Positions 31,149 to 41,131 of a DNA stretch of 41,131 nt are shown here, one piece after another. The stretch's first letter is position 1. Each line of letters opens with the position of its first letter. This DNA is from an uncultured Eubacterium sp. (GTDB lineage: Bacteria; Bacillota; Clostridia; Lachnospirales; Lachnospiraceae). Location: assembly GCA_947384955.1 (NCBI GenBank), contig CANDJC010000031.1, forward strand, positions 1 through 41,131. Reading direction: 5' to 3'. The translations under genes were made by a program, and so were the position numbers. Under the pieces are notes generated by a model. That model saw only the letters and a program-made list of their open reading frames with translations, had not been told where the DNA came from and made no database searches.

Positions 31149-31175
31149 AAACGGAGGACATCATATCCTCCGTTT
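31149..31175 (-). terminator. Terminator of spmA, overlapping its stop codon
   Basis: A perfect 10-bp stem, AAACGGAGGA with TCCTCCGTTT, encloses a 7-base loop, and on the minus-strand transcript is followed by UUUUUGC. The spmA stop codon (31161-31163) lies in the loop. This leaves no room for a co-transcribed spmB. Confidence 0.85.
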
Positions 31176-31538
31176 CCCATCCATCATCTTACAATATATT
31201 ACCGCCACAGCCGTACTCACCATCGTAGCCACAATCGCAGGCCCTACAATCGCCGCCGGATTCACGCTCCCATACTGGCTCCGGTAAGCAATCATATTCA
31301 CTGGAATCAGCTGCAGCGATGAAATATTCAAAATCAAAAAAGTACACATCTCATTACTAGCCATCCCTTTCGGCACTGTAGAAACCTTCCTATTTTTTCT
31401 CCCACGCAAAACCTGCTTTTCACCGGATACCTCCTGAATCTCCTTCTTTCCTTCTCTGCGTTCCTCCTCCAGTTTTTCCAGTTCTTCTATCGCCCTGATT
31501 CCTGCCGGCGTAGCCGCCCATCCCAGCCCAAACACATT
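31161..31538 (-). pseudogene. spmA: spmA 3' part (C-terminal 125 codons), separated by the inserted element
   Basis: From the AA core dinucleotide (31538-31537) this encodes NVFGLGWAATPAGIRAIEEL and on to a stop at 31161. That is the second half of spore maturation protein A, including the conserved N-x-F-GLG-x-AATP-G motif, a charged loop (LEKLEEERREGKKEIQE) and the C-terminal membrane segment AAIVGPAIVATMVSTAVAVI. It has no start codon with a ribosome site: the nearest in-frame TTG (31550) lies in element DNA and has no Shine-Dalgarno. It is therefore silent unless rejoined to the 5' part at 40050-40340. No spmB gene follows. Confidence 0.88.
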
Positions 31539-31562
31539 GGCTTGTGTCAAGGAAGGACTAAA
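31518..31562 (-). other. attR: right junction of the element in spmA
   Basis: The core is AA on the minus strand (31538-31537). Element side: 15 bp, then the arm TTTAGTCCT on the minus strand (31562-31554). Host side: spmA coding sequence. The arm is the inverse of the one at the left junction and sits at the same distance from the core. A palindromic AAAAATTTTT tract lies just inside (about 31561-31570). Confidence 0.8.
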
Positions 31563-31621
31563 AATTTTTTCACTTTTTAAATTTATACACTATAAAACAT
31601 GAATCGTTCAATAAATACGGA

Positions 31622-33175
31622 TTAACATAATAGCATATCCCGAAATTTCCATGTTACTTCTATCCTGTCAGCTTCATACACATCAATCCTTTCTATCAAA
31701 GTATCAGCAAGCGATTTTGTCAGAATCAGATTTTCTGAAAAATCTTCGCCGCTTAATTCCGGTATACTGTCAGATTTGGCGAATGACGCATCGCTTAACT
31801 TCTTATCCAAAAGATTCAATTTCTGCCGACACTCTGATTCCTGTTCCGATAATGCCTCTTTCTGCATAAAATATTCTTCCTTTTTTAGATTCCCCTCCTT
31901 CCATTGATGGTACAAATTCAAACGGCATGTTTTACAATACCCTGCCTTCATTTCAAGAATCCTCTTTTCTTCCTTAACTTTGGAAAGTTCTGAAAGAATT
32001 TGGTTCTGCGTGCTTTGTAAAGCTCTTTCTTTTTCTGAACTGGCTTCCATCAGCTTCTTTAATATATCCAGAACACTTTTTTCTAACACACTTGTCTGTA
32101 TCTTCATATGCGAGCCACAAGCATCTCCCATATGGCAGGAATAGGAATCAACCCGTTTCCCGCTTCGTATCATGCCATATCCGCAGCAGCCGCACTTCAC
32201 CCTGCCTTTCAGTGCATGAGGATTTTCTTCTTTTTTATATCGTCCTCGTTTCCCACGTACCTGTATTGCACTCTGCGCTGCCTGAAACAAAGCTTTTTCA
32301 ACCAAAGGTTCATGGTCATCTTCAAATTTCATATATTCTGATGTGTCATTCCGTTTCATTACTCCTGGCTTTATTGATGTAATTTTATGGCAGACATATG
32401 TCCCGATATAGACCTCATTCTGTATAATTTCCCGGACTTGTGCCGGTGTCCATAAATTACTTTTATGATTTTTTAGTTTATAATTCTCATTTGCAGACTG
32501 GTTTTTGTACGCTCCAGGTGTTGGAATGGATTCGCTGCTTAATATTTCAGCTATTCCTGATGGAGGTATTCCATCCGCAGCAAGCATGAAAATCTTTCTA
32601 ACCGTCTGTGCGGCCTGTGAATCGGGATTATAAGCTGCCCCTTCCTCTTTATTCCGTCGATAGCCGTATGGCACATCTCCGCCGCTGTAACGTCCCCGTT
32701 CCTGATGGAGATGCTTTACAGATTTTACTTTTCTGGACAAATCTCTGCTATATAGATCATGAATCAAATTTTTAAATCCAATTTCTATTCCAACGGGTTT
32801 CTGGAAGCTGTCATAGCTGTCCGATACAGAGATAAAACGGACTCCCATAAATGGAAAAACCTGTTCGATATAATCTCCCACTTCAATATAGTTCCTTCCA
32901 AATCGTGATAAATCCTTTACCACGATGCAAGCCACTCTGCTTTCCTTCACTTCTTTTAATAATTTTTGGATACCAGGACGATGAAAATTTACTCCGGAAA
33001 ATCCATCATCCAAAAATTCCATAACAGGATATTTTGATAATTCCGGGTGATGTTCTATGTAATATTCCAGTACCTTTCTTTGATTCACAATACTGTCACT
33101 TTCAGACTTGTCAGTTCCAATATCTTCATCATCGTCTGATATGCGAAGATACTTTGCAATGTATCCTTCAAGCAT
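31622..33175 (-). CDS. Large serine recombinase, third of the tandem
   Basis: A 517-residue recombinase. The catalytic domain (about 5-155) has YLRIS with nucleophile Ser13, SDSIVNQ, and the VVKDLSRFGRNYIEVGDYIE helix with active-site arginines. The recombinase DNA-binding domain spans about 165-290. The zinc ribbon (about 305-350) starts VKCGCCGYGM and is followed by SCHMGDACGSH. The coiled coil covers about 355-460. The gene is in the same frame as the upstream recombinase, with only its TAA stop and 18 further codons between them. The ATG at 33175 has AAGG eight bases upstream. It is the closest gene to attR. Confidence 0.9.
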   Translation of the reverse strand: MLEGYIAKYLRISDDDEDIGTDKSESDSIVNQRKVLEYYIEHHPELSKYPVMEFLDDGFSGVNFHRPGIQKLLKEVKESRVACIVVKDLSRFGRNYIEVGDYIEQVFPFMGVRFISVSDSYDSFQKPVGIEIGFKNLIHDLYSRDLSRKVKSVKHLHQERGRYSGGDVPYGYRRNKEEGAAYNPDSQAAQTVRKIFMLAADGIPPSGIAEILSSESIPTPGAYKNQSANENYKLKNHKSNLWTPAQVREIIQNEVYIGTYVCHKITSIKPGVMKRNDTSEYMKFEDDHEPLVEKALFQAAQSAIQVRGKRGRYKKEENPHALKGRVKCGCCGYGMIRSGKRVDSYSCHMGDACGSHMKIQTSVLEKSVLDILKKLMEASSEKERALQSTQNQILSELSKVKEEKRILEMKAGYCKTCRLNLYHQWKEGNLKKEEYFMQKEALSEQESECRQKLNLLDKKLSDASFAKSDSIPELSGEDFSENLILTKSLADTLIERIDVYEADRIEVTWKFRDMLLC

Positions 33176-33229
33176 TTCCTGTACCTTCTTTCTGAACGGG
33201 AATCCCTCTATCCATTTTCTTAATCCATT

Positions 33230-34969
33230 TTATCGTACCTTATCGCGTACCTTATCGGGCAAAAGTCCGCCCGCCCCGTCAGGGGCATGTATTGCAGTAT
33301 AATCTTTGGATACGGAATCCGAGAATGAATAGGTAATTTCAATCCTTTCTGGTGATACTATGATAATCTTTTCAATCAGGCAGTCTAAAATATCTATTGG
33401 AAGGTAATCATCCTTTATTTCTAATACATCCTTCCGATATTTATCTACAAAATCTATAACCCCTGTTTCCATTTTTTTATCATCTAGTATTTTGTTTAAA
33501 ATTTCTTCATATTTTGACTGTTCATCTGTCAGGCTTTTTCGCTTTGCACCAAAATCATTGAAAGATAACCGCCCATCTTTCATATCTGTATAAAGTTCCT
33601 GCTTTCTTTTTTTTAGATATGAAATTTTTTCTTCCAGTTCCTGCTTCTCACTTAAACTGGAAGAACTGTCATCCTTAAAACCCATATCTGCCTTTTGCCG
33701 AATCCACTGATTTTGCCATGCACCAGTCAAACGCATCTGCTGGCCAGCAGACTTCATTACAGCTTCCATGAAAGGAATTTCATGGATATGGGTATTTGTG
33801 CAGGAGGCGTTTACTTTTACAGCAGGAGAATTACAGAAATAGCAGTAGTCCCTTATGCCATTTCTGACCCTGCTTCTTCTAGTCAGTAATCTTCCGCACT
33901 GACCGCAATAAATTTTTTTCCGCAGCGGGTTTTCTATATATGGAATATCCGCATGAACCGCTATTTGTTCCGAATGTCTCTGGCTGCTGATTCTGGCCAT
34001 TTCTGATGCTGTGTCAAATTGTTCCTGTGTAATAAGCGCCTGATGGGTATTTTTTACAATTATCCAGTCTTCTTTCGGCAAAAAACGTAACTTTCCGTTT
34101 TGTTCAAAATAACTGCTTCTTGTTTTACCTTGTACCATATGTCCAAGATAAACTGGATTCGTCAAAATTCCGGCTATGTGTTTCGATTTCCACTTTGTAT
34201 TCTGGCTGCGTTTAAAAGCACTGCACCCATTCATATAACGATATTGTCCGGGAGATGGCAGGGCTAATTCATTCAGATATTTTGCAATCTGCCCGCATCC
34301 TTTCCCGCCAGCGCGCCAGGAAAATATTTTCCGGACAATATCTGCACATTCTGAATCAGCTTCCAGTTTCCTGGAATCCGTTTTACATTTTTTATAACCA
34401 TATGGAAGTATGCCGCTGGCAAGCTCTCCTTTTTTCTGCATTGTTTTTTTTGTCTGTGTAACTTTTTTTGATATATCCCTTGCATAATATTCATTTACAA
34501 TATTTGCCAGTGAGTTCATAAGCATATCACTTTGAAAAGCTTGGTTCTCACTGTCAAAATTATCATTGACAGACACTACCCGTACACCAAGAAACGGAAA
34601 TATTTTTTCAAGATAATTTCCGACTTCAATATAATTTCTGCCTATACGGGAAAAGTCCTTCACAATAATACAATTAATGGCACCGCTTTTTATATCATTC
34701 AGCAAAACATTCCAATTTTCACGATTAAAATTCGTGCCGGTTGTTCCGTTATCAGCGTATATCTGAGTTAATTCAAATTCCCCGGAGTTCTTCTCTATAA
34801 ACTCTTTTAAAAACGCAGTCTGGTTCTCAATAGAATCTTTTCTCTTATACCCATTATCTTCGACCGACAGCCGTACATAAATTCCGGTTAAATACTTGGG
34901 AACAACAGAACCGGCGGTATTTTCTGTAATTATTTTTATATTTTTTTTACTTTTCCGTGCTATTCGCAG
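33230..34969 (-). CDS. Large serine recombinase, second of the tandem, without a normal start codon
   Basis: The intact catalytic N-terminus is encoded (GIYVRLSVEDNGYKR, nucleophile Ser in YVRLS; then KDSIENQ and VKDFSRIGRN). No ATG, GTG or TTG lies in frame between the preceding in-frame stop (just before 34980) and this motif; the first TTG is at 34705, inside the catalytic domain. Possible starts are CTG (34969, shown), ATA (34963) or ATT, downstream of an AAAGGGG sequence. A +1 shift from the first recombinase at its TAA stop would also enter this frame. From CTG the product is 579 residues, with zinc ribbon CGQCG near 355 and a coiled coil near 430-520. It overlaps the first recombinase gene by 23 bases. 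Confidence 0.8.
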   Translation of the reverse strand: MRIARKSKKNIKIITENTAGSVVPKYLTGIYVRLSVEDNGYKRKDSIENQTAFLKEFIEKNSGEFELTQIYADNGTTGTNFNRENWNVLLNDIKSGAINCIIVKDFSRIGRNYIEVGNYLEKIFPFLGVRVVSVNDNFDSENQAFQSDMLMNSLANIVNEYYARDISKKVTQTKKTMQKKGELASGILPYGYKKCKTDSRKLEADSECADIVRKIFSWRAGGKGCGQIAKYLNELALPSPGQYRYMNGCSAFKRSQNTKWKSKHIAGILTNPVYLGHMVQGKTRSSYFEQNGKLRFLPKEDWIIVKNTHQALITQEQFDTASEMARISSQRHSEQIAVHADIPYIENPLRKKIYCGQCGRLLTRRSRVRNGIRDYCYFCNSPAVKVNASCTNTHIHEIPFMEAVMKSAGQQMRLTGAWQNQWIRQKADMGFKDDSSSSLSEKQELEEKISYLKKRKQELYTDMKDGRLSFNDFGAKRKSLTDEQSKYEEILNKILDDKKMETGVIDFVDKYRKDVLEIKDDYLPIDILDCLIEKIIIVSPERIEITYSFSDSVSKDYTAIHAPDGAGGLLPDKVRDKVR

Positions 34970-36581
34970 TTTCCCCTTTCAAATAAATTTCTTCATATTC
35001 CGGCTGAAATTTAAAAACAGCTTCGATTTTATCTTTATCAAAAATCCGAATTTCTTCAGCCAGCCTTAACAGAAGCTCTCTGGAAAGCTCCTGAAATCCC
35101 CGGCACTGAATAAACTGTTCCATCCATTGTACCCGGTCTTCCTTTTCCATTGCCAGCTTTCGAATTTCTTCGTTTAATTCTGTAATCTCATTTTCCAAAG
35201 CATTGATTCCTAAGCGGAAAGCCTCTTTCAGTTCTAAATATTCTTCTTTGTTAACAATTCCTTCCTTATAGTCTTCATATACGTCTTGCATATACTGCCG
35301 CTTTTTTTCAATCTGCTTTTCTTTATCCTGAATGGTATTCTGAAATTTGCCAGAAAGATAACTATGATAAGGGATTTTCTCCATTATTTTAATCATCTGA
35401 TTCAGCTCAAATACTTTCTCTATATGAAGATTTATTATTTTCAGTATGATTTTTTCAAATTTCTCCAGAGAAATCGCTTTCTTATTCCTGCATCCAGTTT
35501 TATTTTTATTTTCTACGCATACCAGATAAACGTATTTTTTACCATTCGCAGGAATGGTCTTTCTGGTCATATTCCCACCGCACCATCCGCATTTTACAAT
35601 TCCGGAAAAAAGATATAATGACTGCTTATCTGGCGCTGCTCTGGTATCTGTATGAAAAATGCCCCGTACCAGCCCAAAATCTTCTTTTGAAACAATCGCC
35701 TCATGGCTGTCCTCACATCGAATCCATTCCTTTTCCTCTTTTTTTGTCCTTTTTCTGATTTTATAATTTGGAGAGCAGGTTTTTCCCTGCAGAAGAACTC
35801 CCGTATAAATTTCATTCCGTAAAATCCGGTTTACTCCATTTGCCATCCATTTTGCATCGGCTTTTTTTCGGAAAGAGCATTGCAGATTTTCTCCATTCAT
35901 ATGTTTATATTCAATAGGTGTAGGAATGCCCAGCTTGTTTAATTTGTCAGCAATCCCTGCCCCGCTCATGCCTTCGATTTTCCATTGAAAAATCATTCTC
36001 ACTACATCTGCTGCCGGTTCGTCAATGATTAGCTGATTTTTGTTTACTGGCGATTTCCTGTAGCCATAAGGTGCGAACGAACCAATATACTGCCCATTTT
36101 TTCTTTTTATATCCAGATGGCTTCTTACTTTAATGGAAATATCCCTGCAGTATGCATCGTTAATCAGATTTTTAAAGGGAATCAGCATTTCTTCCGAAGC
36201 GCTCATGCCGGATGAGGTATCAATATTGTCATTGATAGCAATAAATCTTACTCCCAGATATGGAAATATCTTTTCAATGTACCTGCCCGTTTCTATATAG
36301 TTCCTGCCAAATCTGGATAAATCTTTCACAATTACACAATTTACTCTGCCGGACTTAATATCTTCCAGCATTTCCTGAAAAGCAGGACGCTCAAAACTGA
36401 CGCCTGTATAACCGTCATCTGCTTTTTCCTCATGAATATGAATATCGGGATGCCCTTTAAGAAACTCTTTTACAAGAGCTTTTTGATTTACAATACTGTC
36501 ACTTTCAGCCTTGTCCCCATCTTCCCTCGAAAGCCGGTAATAGGCGTCAGCTATATAGATAGTATTTAAATTTTTACTCAT
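34947..36581 (-). CDS. Large serine recombinase, first of the tandem
   Basis: A 544-residue recombinase. The catalytic domain (8-160) has AYYRLS with nucleophile Ser18, ESDSIVNQ, and IVKDLSRFGRNYIETGRYIEK. The recombinase domain covers about 170-300. The zinc ribbon (about 325-375) has VKCGWCGGNM and later paired cysteines. A long Lys/Glu-rich coiled coil (about 400-500) follows. GAGGTG is a clear ribosome site, so this is the first translated member of the tandem. DUF6870 lies 82 bases upstream in the same direction. Elements of Clostridia with two or three such recombinases usually need more than one for recombination; which one is catalytic here is unknown. Confidence 0.92.
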   Translation of the reverse strand: MSKNLNTIYIADAYYRLSREDGDKAESDSIVNQKALVKEFLKGHPDIHIHEEKADDGYTGVSFERPAFQEMLEDIKSGRVNCVIVKDLSRFGRNYIETGRYIEKIFPYLGVRFIAINDNIDTSSGMSASEEMLIPFKNLINDAYCRDISIKVRSHLDIKRKNGQYIGSFAPYGYRKSPVNKNQLIIDEPAADVVRMIFQWKIEGMSGAGIADKLNKLGIPTPIEYKHMNGENLQCSFRKKADAKWMANGVNRILRNEIYTGVLLQGKTCSPNYKIRKRTKKEEKEWIRCEDSHEAIVSKEDFGLVRGIFHTDTRAAPDKQSLYLFSGIVKCGWCGGNMTRKTIPANGKKYVYLVCVENKNKTGCRNKKAISLEKFEKIILKIINLHIEKVFELNQMIKIMEKIPYHSYLSGKFQNTIQDKEKQIEKKRQYMQDVYEDYKEGIVNKEEYLELKEAFRLGINALENEITELNEEIRKLAMEKEDRVQWMEQFIQCRGFQELSRELLLRLAEEIRIFDKDKIEAVFKFQPEYEEIYLKGETANSTEK

Positions 36582-36663
36582 ATCATCACCTCAATAGTCT
36601 TAAATAACTGATTCGTCCACTATTTTACAAGGTTACTCATTCATATTCATACGCTTCTGCCTG

Positions 36664-36912
36664 TTATAAGGATAAAAAATATTCATTCAATTTCTCTTCC
36701 AAAGTATCTTCCGTGTCTGAAAAACGAATCTTTACAATTACCCCATCGCATAAAAAACAATAAGGGTTTCCTATTTGAGCCAGAAAATCGGAAACTCTTT
36801 CTGACCGTTCTAAAGATGTGTCAATTTTAACGTTTTTGATGTCTGTCAGAGAACTTTTATGAACGGATTGAATATCCACATCTTTTAATTTCTCCAGGTA
36901 TGCGCTGCTCAT
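36664..36912 (-). CDS. DUF6870 family small protein of mobile elements
   Basis: An 82-residue protein with the recognisable pattern VDIQSVHKSSLTDIKNVKID, SLERSERVSDFLAQIGNPYC, and a C-terminal VIVKIRFSDTEDTLEEKLNEYF. I recall this family next to serine recombinases and Tn916/Tn1549-like modules in Clostridia; its function is not established. An AGAGGA ribosome site precedes the ATG. Its place directly before the recombinase operon makes it a candidate recombination directionality or accessory factor, which is speculation. Confidence 0.75.
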   Translation of the reverse strand: MSSAYLEKLKDVDIQSVHKSSLTDIKNVKIDTSLERSERVSDFLAQIGNPYCFLCDGVIVKIRFSDTEDTLEEKLNEYFLSL

Positions 36913-36983
36913 CTTAATTTTCCTCTATGCTTTTTAATTAATATATTTTCTATTGCTTGTCCGATATTCGTTACAGAAATATA

Positions 36984-37020
36984 AAAAACGCCCAGACAGA
37001 TATGGCTCTGCCGGACGTTT
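36984..37020 (-). terminator. Terminator after the GH3 gene
   Basis: On the minus strand an imperfect stem AAACGTCCGGCAGA / TCTGTCTGGGCGTTT with loop GCCATA is followed by TTTTTT. It lies about 100 bases past the GH3 stop and separates the GH3 gene from the DUF6870-recombinase genes. Confidence 0.85.
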
Positions 37021-37120
37021 CTTATCGTGATAATATTCTTTTTTATTTCAACTATATCATTTTTCTATCCTGTTTTTTCCATGAACAGTTTCATTTTAAA
37101 TAAAACCTGGCTTCTGCTTT

Positions 37121-39574
37121 TCAGTACATCTGCTTCGCCTTTTTCTTTTTTGCTCCCGAACGGAAAAATCCTCCGATGATTCTGCCAAGCCCTTTCAAAA
37201 AGTGCCCGTTGACTGCTGCCAGTATTCCTTCTGCCATCTCCATAGTCACCATGCCCCCGGTCATTTTCGCAATCCCCCGGAACGGCATATTGTAAATAAA
37301 CAGCAGGTTTAAGTCCGGTTTTCCTTTTGCTTCTGCCTTTTTGAGCATTTTTGTCAGTATGCTGTATACAAATCTGGCAATCCCACTTTTCGCATAATAC
37401 ATCTGACAGATTGCGTCATTGATATCCAGTGTGCCGTGCCAGTTTCCGTCTGGAATTCCATGTCCCAGAAGCTCTGTAAATTCTAAATCCGAAATGTTTT
37501 TAATATTCCCGCTGTAATAATTTTTCATTTTATCCGCCTGATATGGAAACGGTGCATCTGTTCCTTTCACGCTGACTGTCCCGCTCAGACGGATATCTGC
37601 CACGGATGCACCGATTAAAATATCATACTCCCCGCCTTCTGTTTCAAAACGGTTTGTCTTTCCATTAAAATAACGGAATGCTTTATCATCCAGCAGAATC
37701 GTAACCCTGCGGCTTTCCCCTGCTTTCAAAAATACCTTCTGAAACCCTTTCAGCTCTTTTGCCGGACGGTAAACCATGCCTTTTTGAAGCAGCTCCTTTC
37801 CCGCAGCTTCTCCTTTACATCTGGCAGATACATAAAGCTGCGCAGTTTCAGCCCCGTCCATGCTGCCTGAATTCGTCAGCGTAAATTCTGCTTTCTGCGG
37901 TGTTACGGATAAATCACTGTATGAAAATGTCGTATAGGACAGTCCAAAACCAAATGGAAACAGTACCGGAATATCCGCCGTCTCATAATAACGGTAGCCC
38001 ACATACAGACCTTCCCTGTATTCCGCAGTTCTCTGTTTACTCGGAAAATACGGAGCGCCCGGCACATCCTCGTATTTCAGCGGATAGCTCTCCGCAAGCT
38101 TCCCGGAAGGATTCACCACGCCGGTAACCACTTTTAAAAGCGCGGATGCCCCTGCCTGTCCGCACAGATACCCGTGTACAAGCGCTCGGCATTTATCAAG
38201 CCAGGGCATCTCCACTGCAGAACCGGCGGAAAAAACAGCCACAATATTTTTATTCACTTCATATATTTTTTCCAGTAACCGTATCTGGCTTTCCGGTATT
38301 TTCATATGCTGGCGGTCAAGTCCTTCGGATTCTGAGATTTCATCCAGCCCGATATATAACAGCACCGCCTCCGCTCCTTTTGCCAGCCCACACGCTTCCC
38401 GTTCCAGAGCCGTATCGGTCGGTCCCACACGGTGATAGCCTCTGGCAAATCCGATACATTCCAAATCAAACTTCTGAATCACTCCGGCTGCACTGTCAAG
38501 CCTGGTCGGATTTACAACCGAAGAACCTGCTCCCTGATATCTTGGATTTTCTGCAAAATCTCCAATCAGCGCCACTTTTGTACCTTTTTTCAGCGGCAGG
38601 ATATTTCCTTCATTTTTCAGCAGCACAGCAGACTGCTCACTGGCTTTTTCAGCCATTGCATGATGTTTTTCGATATCAAATTTCTGCCCGCGCTTCTTTG
38701 ACACTTCCTTTGTAGTGGAAAATATTACATCCAGCAGTTCATCTGCCATCTGGTCAATCCATTTTTCACTGATTCTTCCTGCTTTCACAGCCTCCAGCAG
38801 TTCAAAATCGGAATCACCCCCGGTTGTCGGCATTTCCATATGGGAACCTGCCGCAACACCCGCTGTATGGTCGTTGCTTCCGCCCCAGTCCGACACGACA
38901 AAACCATGAAATCCCCATTCATCCTTTAAAATATCCCTTAACAGATGTTTATTCTCATTCGCGTAAATCCCGTTAATTCGGTTATAGGAAGACATGACTG
39001 CATGCGGGTCAGCCTCTTTCACCGCAATCTCAAATGCTGTCAGGTAAATCTCCCGCAGCGTCCGCTCATCCACAACCGAATCAGATGCCATACGGCGCAG
39101 TTCCTGAGAATTTGCCGCAAAATGCTTCGGACATGCAGACACGCCAAAACTTTGAATGCCCCGTATATATCCGGCAGCCATTTTTCCTGTCAGATAAGGG
39201 TCCTCGCTAAAATATTCAAAATTACGCCCGCACAATGGAGAACGCTTGATGTTCATCCCCGGCCCCAGCAGTACATCCACATCCTGGCAGGCCGCTTCTT
39301 CTCCAAGACACCTGCCAAGCTCCTCGCCAAGCTCCGGGTCCCAGGAATTCGCTATTGCAGCCGCTGTCGGAAAACAAGTCGCAGGCACGGAACCGTTCAG
39401 TCCAAGCTGGTCTCCCGCACCTTCCTGCTTTCGTATCCCATGCGGCCCGTCAGCCATAGCCATATTTGGAATACCAAGCCTTTCGACACTTCTGGACTGC
39501 CAGAAATCTTTTCCGGAAAAGAGATAACATTTTTCTTCCAATGTCATTTTTGAAATCAGTTTCTGATATTTCAT
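37121..39574 (-). CDS. GH3 family beta-glucosidase-type enzyme, cargo of the element
   Basis: An 817-residue cytoplasmic enzyme (no signal peptide). The GH3 N-terminal barrel covers about 20-270 with nucleophile D229 in FVVSDWGG, and PKHFAANSQELRR supplies substrate-binding Lys/His. The C-terminal alpha/beta domain spans about 310-540 and has the acid/base region ESEGLDRQHM near 410-425. A fibronectin-III-like domain (about 560-665) and a helical C-terminal extension (about 680-817, basic KKKKAKQ end) follow. The domain order is that of bacterial beta-glucosidases acting on oligosaccharides; the exact sugar is unknown. AAGGAG supports the start. A carbohydrate enzyme is unusual cargo for a small recombinase element, and a related decayed fragment lies just upstream. 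Confidence 0.92.
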   Translation of the reverse strand: MKYQKLISKMTLEEKCYLFSGKDFWQSRSVERLGIPNMAMADGPHGIRKQEGAGDQLGLNGSVPATCFPTAAAIANSWDPELGEELGRCLGEEAACQDVDVLLGPGMNIKRSPLCGRNFEYFSEDPYLTGKMAAGYIRGIQSFGVSACPKHFAANSQELRRMASDSVVDERTLREIYLTAFEIAVKEADPHAVMSSYNRINGIYANENKHLLRDILKDEWGFHGFVVSDWGGSNDHTAGVAAGSHMEMPTTGGDSDFELLEAVKAGRISEKWIDQMADELLDVIFSTTKEVSKKRGQKFDIEKHHAMAEKASEQSAVLLKNEGNILPLKKGTKVALIGDFAENPRYQGAGSSVVNPTRLDSAAGVIQKFDLECIGFARGYHRVGPTDTALEREACGLAKGAEAVLLYIGLDEISESEGLDRQHMKIPESQIRLLEKIYEVNKNIVAVFSAGSAVEMPWLDKCRALVHGYLCGQAGASALLKVVTGVVNPSGKLAESYPLKYEDVPGAPYFPSKQRTAEYREGLYVGYRYYETADIPVLFPFGFGLSYTTFSYSDLSVTPQKAEFTLTNSGSMDGAETAQLYVSARCKGEAAGKELLQKGMVYRPAKELKGFQKVFLKAGESRRVTILLDDKAFRYFNGKTNRFETEGGEYDILIGASVADIRLSGTVSVKGTDAPFPYQADKMKNYYSGNIKNISDLEFTELLGHGIPDGNWHGTLDINDAICQMYYAKSGIARFVYSILTKMLKKAEAKGKPDLNLLFIYNMPFRGIAKMTGGMVTMEMAEGILAAVNGHFLKGLGRIIGGFFRSGAKKKKAKQMY

Positions 39575-39619
39575 CCTTTCTCTCTCCTTCGCATAGTTTA
39601 TATAAACCCGGCCTCCTGC

Positions 39620-39830
39620 TTAACAGAAGGCATATTCATTATTTTTGCAAGCCTGACGCATAGCTGAAACAAGCGTTACAGAACCTGTATTTGTAATTGC
39701 ATTCGACTCATGCTGCATAAATCCAAGCATCGCGTCATTTCCATTGCGGACAAAATCATCTGTATTCTGATACCCAATCGATATCCGCATCTATCGTAAA
39801 CGTTTCTTCCGCCAGTACGCTGTGCGCATC
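39620..39830 (-). pseudogene. Decayed C-terminal fragment of a second GH3-like gene
   Basis: On the minus strand, two frames together give an interrupted protein: AEETFTIDADIDWVSEYR in one frame, then DDFVRNGNDAMLGFMQHESN and ITNTGSVTLVSAMRQACKN in the next, ending at a stop near 39620. The SAMRQACKN segment resembles the end of large secreted GH3 enzymes, where it normally continues as (I/L)-x-YTVVNS. The frameshift and premature stop mark it as dead. It lies just upstream of the intact GH3 gene. Confidence 0.45.
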
Positions 39831-39986
39831 GGAACGGATGGTTCATTTACTGTCTGAACTGTCATCGTGATTTTACGAAAAACGCGGCCGCTGTCTTTCT
39901 TTTGATAGCTATATTATACATCCTATTTATCAGATTTTCTAATTTAAACTCTCTATTGTCTATAAAAATCTGCAGACATGAAAAAA

Positions 39987-40033
39987 TAGGACTAAATAAA
40001 GCCCTTTCATTAAAGGTTCTTTATTTAGTCCTA
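39987..40033. repeat. Two-tier perfect inverted repeat at the left end of the element
   Basis: TAGGACTAAATAAAG (39987-40001) pairs perfectly with CTTTATTTAGTCCTA (40019-40033), and the intervening bases contain a second small hairpin, CCTTT-CATT-AAAGG. The right arm of the repeat includes the attL arm TTTAGTCCT (40024-40032). It may be an extra recombinase or accessory-factor site, or a terminator that stops transcription entering from spmA. Confidence 0.8.
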
Positions 40034-40068
40034 TAATAACAGAGTCCTTCGCTATAAAATTCTCCGCA
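40024..40068 (-). other. attL: left junction of the element in spmA
   Basis: The core is AA on the minus strand (40049-40048). Host side: spmA codons ending in GCG (40052-40050). Element side: 15 bp, then the arm AGGACTAAA on the minus strand (40032-40024). Combined with attR this gives a reconstructed attP of TTTAGTCCT, 15 bp, AA, 15 bp, AGGACTAAA. Confidence 0.8.
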
Positions 40069-40340
40069 ATATACTGATTCGCCACATGCCCCTTCGGAAT
40101 CCGAGGAAACAAAAACCGTAAAAACGGCTTCAGACCCCTCACAGCCCCCTGAATAATCCCCGCCTTTTCCGCAATCCTCATAAGCCCGACCCACAGCGAC
40201 ATCACCCCTGTCATCGTAATACACAGCGTCACTGCCTCCTTCGAAGAATCCACTGCTGCCTGTGTCACTTCCGGCAGCGTTCCGTTCAAAGCTGCATACA
40301 CAATTCCTGCTGTAATCATAAATCCCCATAAATAATTCAT
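40050..40340 (-). pseudogene. spmA: spmA 5' part (N-terminal 97 codons), interrupted by the element
   Basis: Encodes the first 97 residues of spore maturation protein A: MNYLWGFMITAGIVYAALNG, a second membrane segment (AVTLCITMTGVMSLWVGLMRIAEKAG), the FLFPRIPKGH motif and YIAENFIA at the junction. The frame runs on into the element for 29 codons (KDSVIIGLNKEP...) and stops at 39960, giving a truncated 126-residue product. AAGGTGA precedes the ATG. In Bacillus, SpmA acts with SpmB in spore core dehydration and is made in the mother cell under sigma-E. A CATATAGT at 40374-40381 (minus strand) resembles a sigma-E -10, but no good -35 was found. Confidence 0.88.
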
Positions 40341-40441
40341 AAAAATTCACCTTTTTCTCAGTATTATCCTTATACTATATGTAAAAAGATATCTGAAAAG
40401 ACATGGGGAAGTGATGGTTTCGGGGTGTTTCTTTCGGGACG

Positions 40442-40720
40442 CCGGGAGGGGGTATTTTTTCCTTCTTATGTTCCGCTTCCAAAAAGCAGGAAGTTCTAAG
40501 TTTTCTGCGGAAAGGTTTTGGGAACGGACGGACCGGCGCCTGATGCCCTGGCGTTACTGGCTGCTGGATGCAGTGGCATTGGCAGGCGCCTTTTGGGGAC
40601 TTCAGGGTTTTTTTAAGGATACAGGCTGTGTGTCCCCAAATCCTGGGTATTGAGCAGAAAACTAAAAACTTCCAGCTTTTTTCCAGAGTCACATAAGAAG
40701 GAAAAAATACCCCCTCCCGG
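40442..40720. repeat. 279-bp MITE-like element with perfect 29-bp terminal inverted repeats
   Basis: The left terminus (40442-40470, starting CCGGGAGGGGGTATTTTTTC) is perfectly repeated in inverse at 40692-40720. Inside, a weaker inverted repeat continues for ~40 bases (AAAAAGCAGGAAGTTCTAAG versus the inverse of 40650-40690). Open frames on both strands here are by-products of the palindrome. No transposase is present, so it would be a non-autonomous or palindromic intergenic element. Confidence 0.7.
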
Positions 40721-40728
40721 CTGATACT

Positions 40729-40765
40729 GGCAAAATTTACACTGGCAGAATTTACGATATGGCAG
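40729..40765 (-). repeat. Minisatellite-like units in inverse orientation
   Basis: GGCAAAATTTAC (40729-40740) and GGCAGAATTTACG (40744-40756), followed by ATATGGCAG, match the reverse complement of the GTAAATTCAGCC unit repeated at 40942-41038. They lie directly beside the 279-bp element. Confidence 0.5.
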
Positions 40766-40941
40766 TCAGCTCAGATTATGTTGACTTAAAAGATAATAAG
40801 ATAAGAAACAGCCGAAACTGAAATTAGACGTAACAAAATATTTCGCATATAGCAGCATATAACAACTTTCATTGAATTTATACGAGTAAAATTTATAGTA
40901 CAGTATATTTTGTACACTTTATCACTTTAAAAGAATCTTAG

Positions 40942-41038
40942 ATAACTTAAATTCAGCCTCTATAACGTATATTCGCCCCCATAACGTAAATTCAGCCTTC
41001 ATAACCGTAAATTCAGCCTCCGTAACGTAAATTCAGCC
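40942..41038 (+). repeat. Tandem minisatellite, five units of 17-21 bp
   Basis: Units start at 40942, 40962, 40981, 41001 and 41022, with consensus ATAACGTAAATTCAGCCTC. The second unit is the most diverged (TATATTCGCC) and the fourth has one extra C. There are no spacers, so it is not a CRISPR array. No gene overlaps it. Confidence 0.8.
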
Positions 41039-41046
41039 AAAACCAG

Positions 41047-41131
41047 CCGGGCGGAGAAATTTTTTCCTTCGGATGCGACTCTGGAAAAAAGCTGGAAGTT
41101 CTTAGTTTTCTGCTCAATACCCAGGATTTGG
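41047..41131 (+). repeat. Further copy of the MITE arm, cut by the window end
   Basis: Starting CCGGGCGGAGAAATTTTTTC, this segment matches the inverse of the right arm of the 279-bp element for about 75 bases (CTGGAAAAAAGCTGGAAGTT, then TTTTCTGCTCAATACCCAGG and ATTTGG), with a few differences. It forms a long inverted repeat with about 40634-40720 around the minisatellite region. Confidence 0.75.

Follow-up and report, generated by a model that had tools for sequence, protein, structure and literature searches.

The window analysed here, the whole 41,131-nt contig CANDJC010000031.1 of an uncultured Eubacterium sp. (Lachnospiraceae), contains a sporulation gene, spmA, whose codons 97 and 98 are separated by an insert of 8,511 bp. 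This insert is very probably an integrative mobile element that uses spmA codon 98 as its chromosomal attachment site (attB), with a promoter that is split by integration and rebuilt by excision. Comparison of sequences shows the ends of the element, their symmetry, the dinucleotide between them, the restored frame, the two promoter halves, the horizontal spread and the joined ends found in the wider family. The window is contig C31 of the draft genome G000 (5.06 Mb, 271 contigs, estimated contamination 4.67%); below, G labels denote the genomes and L labels the loci compared, G000 being the window's own genome.

Removal of 31539-40049 leaves 669 nt encoding 222 amino acids plus a stop codon, in frame (...NQYIAENFIANVFGLGWAATPAG...), as proposed by an earlier sequence-only reading of this DNA, which had described a precise and frame-restoring insertion in a conserved spmA codon. 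The same protein was obtained from each of the five cut points tried, and the exact cut is therefore not readable from the window locus alone. The third position of the codon before AA depends on the host (GCG in the window, GCC in G009, GCA in G410), whereas the element sequence that follows AA is similar in all three, and we therefore placed the cut at AA. No second SpmA was found in the window genome, its two SpmA matches being the two halves. The genus comparison covered 13 genomes (G000-G012), 12 of them with an SpmA match and one, G003, without. Eight congeners (G001, G004-G008, G010 and G012) have an uninterrupted spmA of 202-225 amino acids; the predicted join IAN(V/I)FGLG is present in all eight, and G001 and G004 show the exact codons predicted for the rebuilt window gene, GCG AAT GTG TTT GGG. 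Both the single copy and the match with uninterrupted relatives, on which the earlier reading depended, are thus borne out, confirming that the sole spmA of this genome is split by a removable insert. The gene is also interrupted in G002, which has one 5' end and separate 3' pieces, and in G009, which is cut at codon 98 as in the window; G011 has an spmA remnant beside an element end. More widely, 244 of the 397 family genomes sampled gave an SpmA match, mostly uninterrupted among the matches listed. A CATATA-type -10 lies ahead of many spmA genes of the genus, as judged by eye.

The ends of the insert were compared in eight attL/attR pairs, five at codon 98 and three at codon 183, the codon-107 pair of G002 being left out. 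All eight share one layout (host, dinucleotide, 24 nt ... 24 nt, dinucleotide, host), and joining preserves the reading frame in each. The codon-98 pairs have AA as their core dinucleotide and the codon-183 pairs TA. In every pair the outer octamers, TTTAGTCY and GGACTAAA, form an inverted repeat with at most one mismatch. Since the G411 and G416 elements are near-copies, these pairs represent seven distinct elements. Joining the ends reconstructs a symmetric attP of about 50 bp in 8/8 cases, and the junctions observed in IMG/VR contigs measure 50 nt in three cases and 51 in one. Symmetric arms around a dinucleotide are the form taken by the attP of serine integrases. An attP of this form is described in PMC5595907.

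The arms also carry the two halves of a putative promoter. TTGACA is found in the left arm and TATAAT or TATTAT in the right one, and joining sets them 17 nt apart, giving TTGACA-17-TATTAT at the rebuilt window junction. Summed mismatches to TTGACA/TATAAT are 0 in G407, G408, G411 and G416 and 1 in G000, G409 and G410; at most one summed mismatch at 17 nt is thus seen in 7/8 junctions, versus 0.03% of random 50-mers of similar composition. Integration leaves the -35 and -10 halves 8.5 kb apart, and because the promoter exists only with the ends joined, the integrated element would be silent from it. Directly inside attR lies a terminator-like hairpin oriented against transcription arriving from spmA. 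The coordinates of all features are collected in the table.

Table. Features of the interrupted spmA locus in the window (positions on the forward strand of the contig)
Feature	Position	Strand	Basis or remark
spmA 5' part, codons 1-97 (M...YIAENFIA)	40050..40340	-	78-89% amino acid identity to the matching residues of 8 uninterrupted congeners
spmA 3' part, codons 98-222 and stop (N VFGLGWAATPAG...KRRI)	31161..31538	-	sequence, join test, congener comparison
Inserted element, 8,511 bp including one copy of the shared AA (TT on +)	31539..40049	-	deletion and pair test
Core dinucleotide at attL (TT on +, AA on -)	31537..31538	.	pair test
Core dinucleotide at attR (TT on +, AA on -)	40048..40049	.	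pair test
attL; element arm 31539-31562 = TTTAGTCCTTCCTTGACACAAGCC; -35-like TTGACA 31545-31550	31513..31562	-	end comparison
attR; element arm 40024-40047 = GGACTCTGTTATTATAGGACTAAA; -10-like TATTAT 40033-40038	40024..40073	-	end comparison
Large serine recombinase LSR1, 517 amino acids	31622..33175	-	domain scan; 59 nt from attL arm
Large serine recombinase LSR2, open frame of 569 amino acids	33230..34939	-	domain scan
Large serine recombinase LSR3, 544 amino acids	34947..36581	-	domain scan
DUF6870 protein, 82 amino acids	36664..36912	-	domain scan
Conserved box GAATATNGGACAAGCA-N-AATATATT ahead of DUF6870	36938..36971	-	comparison of related loci
GH3 glycosidase (cargo), 817 amino acids	37121..39574	-	PF00933, PF01915, PF14310
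Terminator-like hairpin directly inside attR	39986..40034	-	16-nt perfect arms around an inner hairpin, then a T run; -24.9 kcal/mol, z -7.15

Judged by sequence relationships, the insert is a member of a Lachnospiraceae element family whose insertion sites are codons 98 and 183 of spmA, a gene for an M23 peptidase and one for a CspBA-like protease. A single search with LSR3 gave 30 loci, 11 of which (L021-L029, L045 and L048) show 69-82% LSR3 identity, and spmA is interrupted in 9/11 genomes behind these loci. The cut falls at codon 98 in G407, G409, G410, G414 and G417, at codon 183 in G408, G411 and G416, and at about codon 107, by the end of another group, in G415. Insertion at the same spmA codon is recurrent by this comparison, since relatives carry similar elements there. 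In G412 and G413 (L026, L027) spmA is uninterrupted and the element lies inside an M23-peptidase gene, of which the window genome has an undisrupted copy (C61, L140; Pfam M23 peptidase). Among the 19 other loci, 13 show the end motif followed by APYGEKVKAYL or a near variant. This C-terminus matched the CspBA germination protease model with E 0.019 alone and 2e-13 when joined with the 5' side of L040; the label is provisional because the fragment was joined from two loci.

The family also moves and spreads horizontally, as indicated by joined ends in IMG/VR contigs and by a nearly identical element in two genera. In L025 and L045, whose hosts are Hominisplanchenecus murintestinalis and Petralouisia muris, 13,452 bp are 99.9% identical; both are cut at codon 183, and the 5' parts of their spmA genes are 62% and 75% identical to that of the window. 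Joined ends were found in four IMG/VR contigs, two with three LSRs and DUF6870 (L118, L119), one with two recombinases (L120) and one with a recombinase fragment (L121), an arrangement that free circles would produce. The cargo varies between elements. G410 carries a xanthine/uracil-type (purine-type) permease along with a phosphoribosyltransferase, and G407 has ParA, ParB_N and RepA_N proteins. Behind the element end, a HAD hydrolase and a prismane-family protein are encoded in G414, and a GH2 protein and a transport permease domain in G409. The G407 and G414 cargo was assigned by position next to attR because the two ends lie on different contigs. G009 shares the attR end with the window element, with other spmA codons, and no GH3 or LSR is present in its element-side stretch of 3.9 kb.

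The domain scan of the insert covered five proteins (the three LSRs, DUF6870 and GH3), smaller open reading frames not being included. All three LSRs contain resolvase, recombinase and zinc-ribbon domains. LSR1 and LSR3 are under purifying selection relative to G414, with non-synonymous (dN) and synonymous (dS) rates of 0.11 and 0.95 for LSR1. Three changes of target label are needed on the LSR1 tree (17 rows) versus four on the LSR3 tree (15 rows, without G414), weakly favouring LSR1 as the recombinase that sets the target. No close LSR1 relative was found in IMG/VR, where the matches were distant (about 22-35% across the aligned portions), and none of at least 60% identity in phage and plasmid records, 33% and 35% being the top values among the best 10 of 400 and of 289 matches. 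DUF6870 lies immediately upstream of LSR3 in 23/30 related loci, several of the remaining loci beginning within LSR3, and this position makes it a candidate directionality or regulatory factor. The box GAATATNGGACAAGCA...AATATATT ahead of it is kept at the same place in 17 related loci, with a related form even in a distant group at 47% LSR3 identity; its spacing matches no standard sigma-A promoter. We also considered DUF6870 as an already known directionality factor and rejected this, there being no fold match and no occurrence of the name in the open-licence literature searched.

Taken together, we propose that members of the family, marked by DUF6870, usually three LSRs and TTTAGTCY...GGACTAAA ends, would integrate by attP x attB recombination at AA, splitting spmA and parting the -35 from the -10. 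In the integrated state the hairpin inside attR would block readthrough from the spmA promoter. Excision by an LSR together with a directionality factor, for which DUF6870 is the candidate, would then rebuild an in-frame spmA and release a circle whose attP, TTGACA-17-TATTAT, would read into the element genes. The recombinases would be active in the window strain, and one of them, perhaps LSR1, would act on spmA. In the circle, the hairpin would fall at the very start of the transcript, which the model does not account for.

Several observations weigh against this proposal. Searches of 397 family genomes, the window's own included, and of 28 chosen genomes yielded no joined ends, with patterns that miss the G409 and G414 forms and, in the 397-genome search, the G410 form too; excision of spmA elements was therefore not seen. 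Terminal repeats are absent from L119, examined as a whole contig, and from three small human-gut contigs. LSR2 of the window has a non-standard codon at the start position used in the relatives compared, G410 is without LSR2 and the LSR2 of G414 is shortened. The predicted model of DUF6870 (mean pLDDT confidence score 75) gave no fold match in the PDB at E<=0.001. As for the promoter, the G414 junction is poor, with five mismatches, and one of the four IMG/VR junctions, that of 51 nt, has no -10. Finally, the integrated element need not be silent because an additional promoter-like site, TAGAAA-17-TATAAT, lies within it at 39941-39913; four such sites were found versus 2.4 expected.

The sequence-only reading had gone further and seen in this arrangement the hallmark of skin-type intervening sequences. 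This was not established, since any serine-integrase element with its attB in a gene gives the same geometry, and the present family is mobile, has varied cargo and is also found in an M23-peptidase gene; nor is frame repair proof of developmental control, because any conservative site-specific insertion gives it. That the mobile element is in addition excised on schedule in the mother cell, so that spores are built with a restored SpmA and the germ line retains the element, is a serious possibility, though one that we doubt. Two kinds of gene hit by the family, spmA-spmB and cspBA, are placed in the mother-cell sigma-E regulon of C. difficile (PMC3789822), dacB-spmAB is under sigma-E in B. 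subtilis (PMC517825), and nearly all known intervening elements occupy mother-cell genes according to PMC6957869. The gin element in gerE, as PMC5595907 presents it, offers a non-phage precedent with three LSRs and a predicted AA cleavage. The window element has its own serine recombinases and splits a sporulation gene with in-frame repair; gene content derived from a phage was not found, none of the five insert proteins scanned being a phage structural or replication family, and a prophage origin was rejected. Besides the sole spmA copy, the SpoIVA ATPase domain is present in 19/19 genomes searched, the window genome included, and SpmB in 16/18, the window's spmB lying on C39, apart from spmA; at least this part of the sporulation gene set is therefore retained by the host. 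The spmA genes of G414 and G416, cut at codons 98 and 183 respectively, are separated by 22+14+15 = 51 synonymous and 1 non-synonymous differences over 191 codons, the divergent C-terminal tail being excluded, and their spmB genes by 48 and 2 over 164 codons. Attempts to date the insertion by dN/dS were set aside: constraint is strong, but young insertions would look alike, and several dS values are saturated.

Other observations speak against scheduled excision. Given the very recent transfer between the hosts of L025 and L045, the halves could be intact just because the insertions are young. Nothing in the element could be recognised as a sporulation-type promoter, the DUF6870 box not being attributable to any sigma factor, and the M23-peptidase gene that holds two elements has no known sporulation role. 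SpmB was not found in G009, an interrupted genome, in-frame restoration is automatic for such insertions, and the window LSR2 is without a standard start. G007 and G012, in addition, hold an uninterrupted spmA alongside 3' remnants. These copies were observed at L127, L128 and L129 in G007 and at L130 (4858-7305) in G012, where a 3' remnant follows an element end 1.8 kb downstream of the whole gene; certain elements may supply a new 3' end and so leave spmA complete.

A broader idea, which we hold to be somewhat unlikely, is that of a triple-recombinase family whose special targets are genes of the mother cell, namely a cspBA-like protease gene and spmA, the latter at several codons. Such elements would be parked without harm to growth and excised in the doomed mother cell, the circle-only promoter then driving their own genes, thereby coupling host sporulation to mobilisation.

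It is unlikely that the insert is a plain disrupting transposon or relic, fixed in a dead spmA, with spores absent or poorly heat resistant. Both parts of spmA keep open, conserved frames, LSR1 and LSR3 remain intact under constraint, and excision of gin is reported to require just GirC and GirX (PMC5595907). Decay of elements at the spmA locus is nevertheless shown by remnants or multiple 3' spmA pieces in G002, G007, G408, G409, G011 and G012, and both the start of LSR2 and the absence of joined ends from the assembly would fit a relic. An assembly artefact fusing unrelated DNA, conceivable in a 271-contig draft with some estimated contamination, is highly improbable and already contradicted by relatives that share the junction architecture, with the halves on one contig in G410 (30.9 kb) and G409 (164 kb).

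As an integrative mobile element, the insert most resembles gin of Bacillus cereus ATCC10987, which PMC5595907 describes as a non-phage element in a gene of the mother-cell sporulation kind, with three serine recombinase genes, an inverted-repeat attachment site, a predicted AA cleavage dinucleotide and recent horizontal spread. According to the same account, gin differs by its size (28.6 kb), by girAB lying apart from girC and by a tested directionality factor, GirX, whereas the window element has three LSRs in a row behind DUF6870, targets spmA and is known here from sequence alone. Skin in sigK, SP-beta in spsM, vfbin and yin in yabG are likewise serine-recombinase elements that split a sporulation gene and are repaired on excision (PMC4191935, PMC5025042, PMC10747680, PMC5595907). 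These four are prophages or prophage-like, with a single recombinase (PMC5595907), and their excision was demonstrated, while the window element is, unlike skin, SP-beta and yin, not prophage-like, and its excision is predicted from the DNA. In ICEKp1 (PMC13023037), the joined ends after excision also give promoter activity for the integrase gene and a terminator lies near the element end, but this is a Klebsiella integrative and conjugative element with another integrase layout and, as described there, no sporulation gene. The window element also differs from the TnpX transposons Tn4451 and Tn4453: its family usually has three recombinases, its chromosomal target in spmA is fixed, and a terminator-like hairpin lies directly inside its end. 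For Tn4451, Lyras and Rood reportedly found in 2000 a promoter formed at the circle junction. In spmA, the window element combines a gene-intervening arrangement like that of gin with a promoter that joining of its ends would form. The suggestion that spmA had not been described as a host gene agrees with the titles and abstract starts of the open-licence literature searched, in which spmA is not named as an integration site; the word is also absent from the main texts of PMC5595907, PMC10747680 and PMC6957869.

With spmA, entered at up to three codons, and a CspBA-like protease gene, the list of host genes for serine-recombinase elements grows, and across gut Lachnospiraceae insertions return to the same small set of sites. 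These observations offer a test of why such elements choose mother-cell genes, a recombinase set with defined att sites and a split promoter that would be assembled only on excision. Because spmA-spmB acts in core dehydration and heat resistance (PMC3789822), affected gut strains may form less heat-resistant spores if excision fails.

Further end motifs and repeats were observed. A third spmA site lies near codon 107, between ATPAG and LKAME, in G002 (L131, L132), G415 (L135), G012 (L130), G408 (L022) and G409 (L117); its elements retain TTGACA and TATAAT-like halves but differ in their arms (TGTCACTAACTTGACA / TTATTATAATGACAG and variants). The window genome contains two more end motifs, TTAGTCCGTGCTTGACA, with GA at the core place (G000:C50:17850-17866 and G000:C102:3906-3922; L106, L107), and no LSR match was found near them within the stretches examined. 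Another LSR-like gene, of 29% identity, lies at G000:C185:6600-8102. At the contig end upstream of spmA (40440-41131), inverted and short tandem-like repeats with CGTAAATTCAGCC units were noted by eye.

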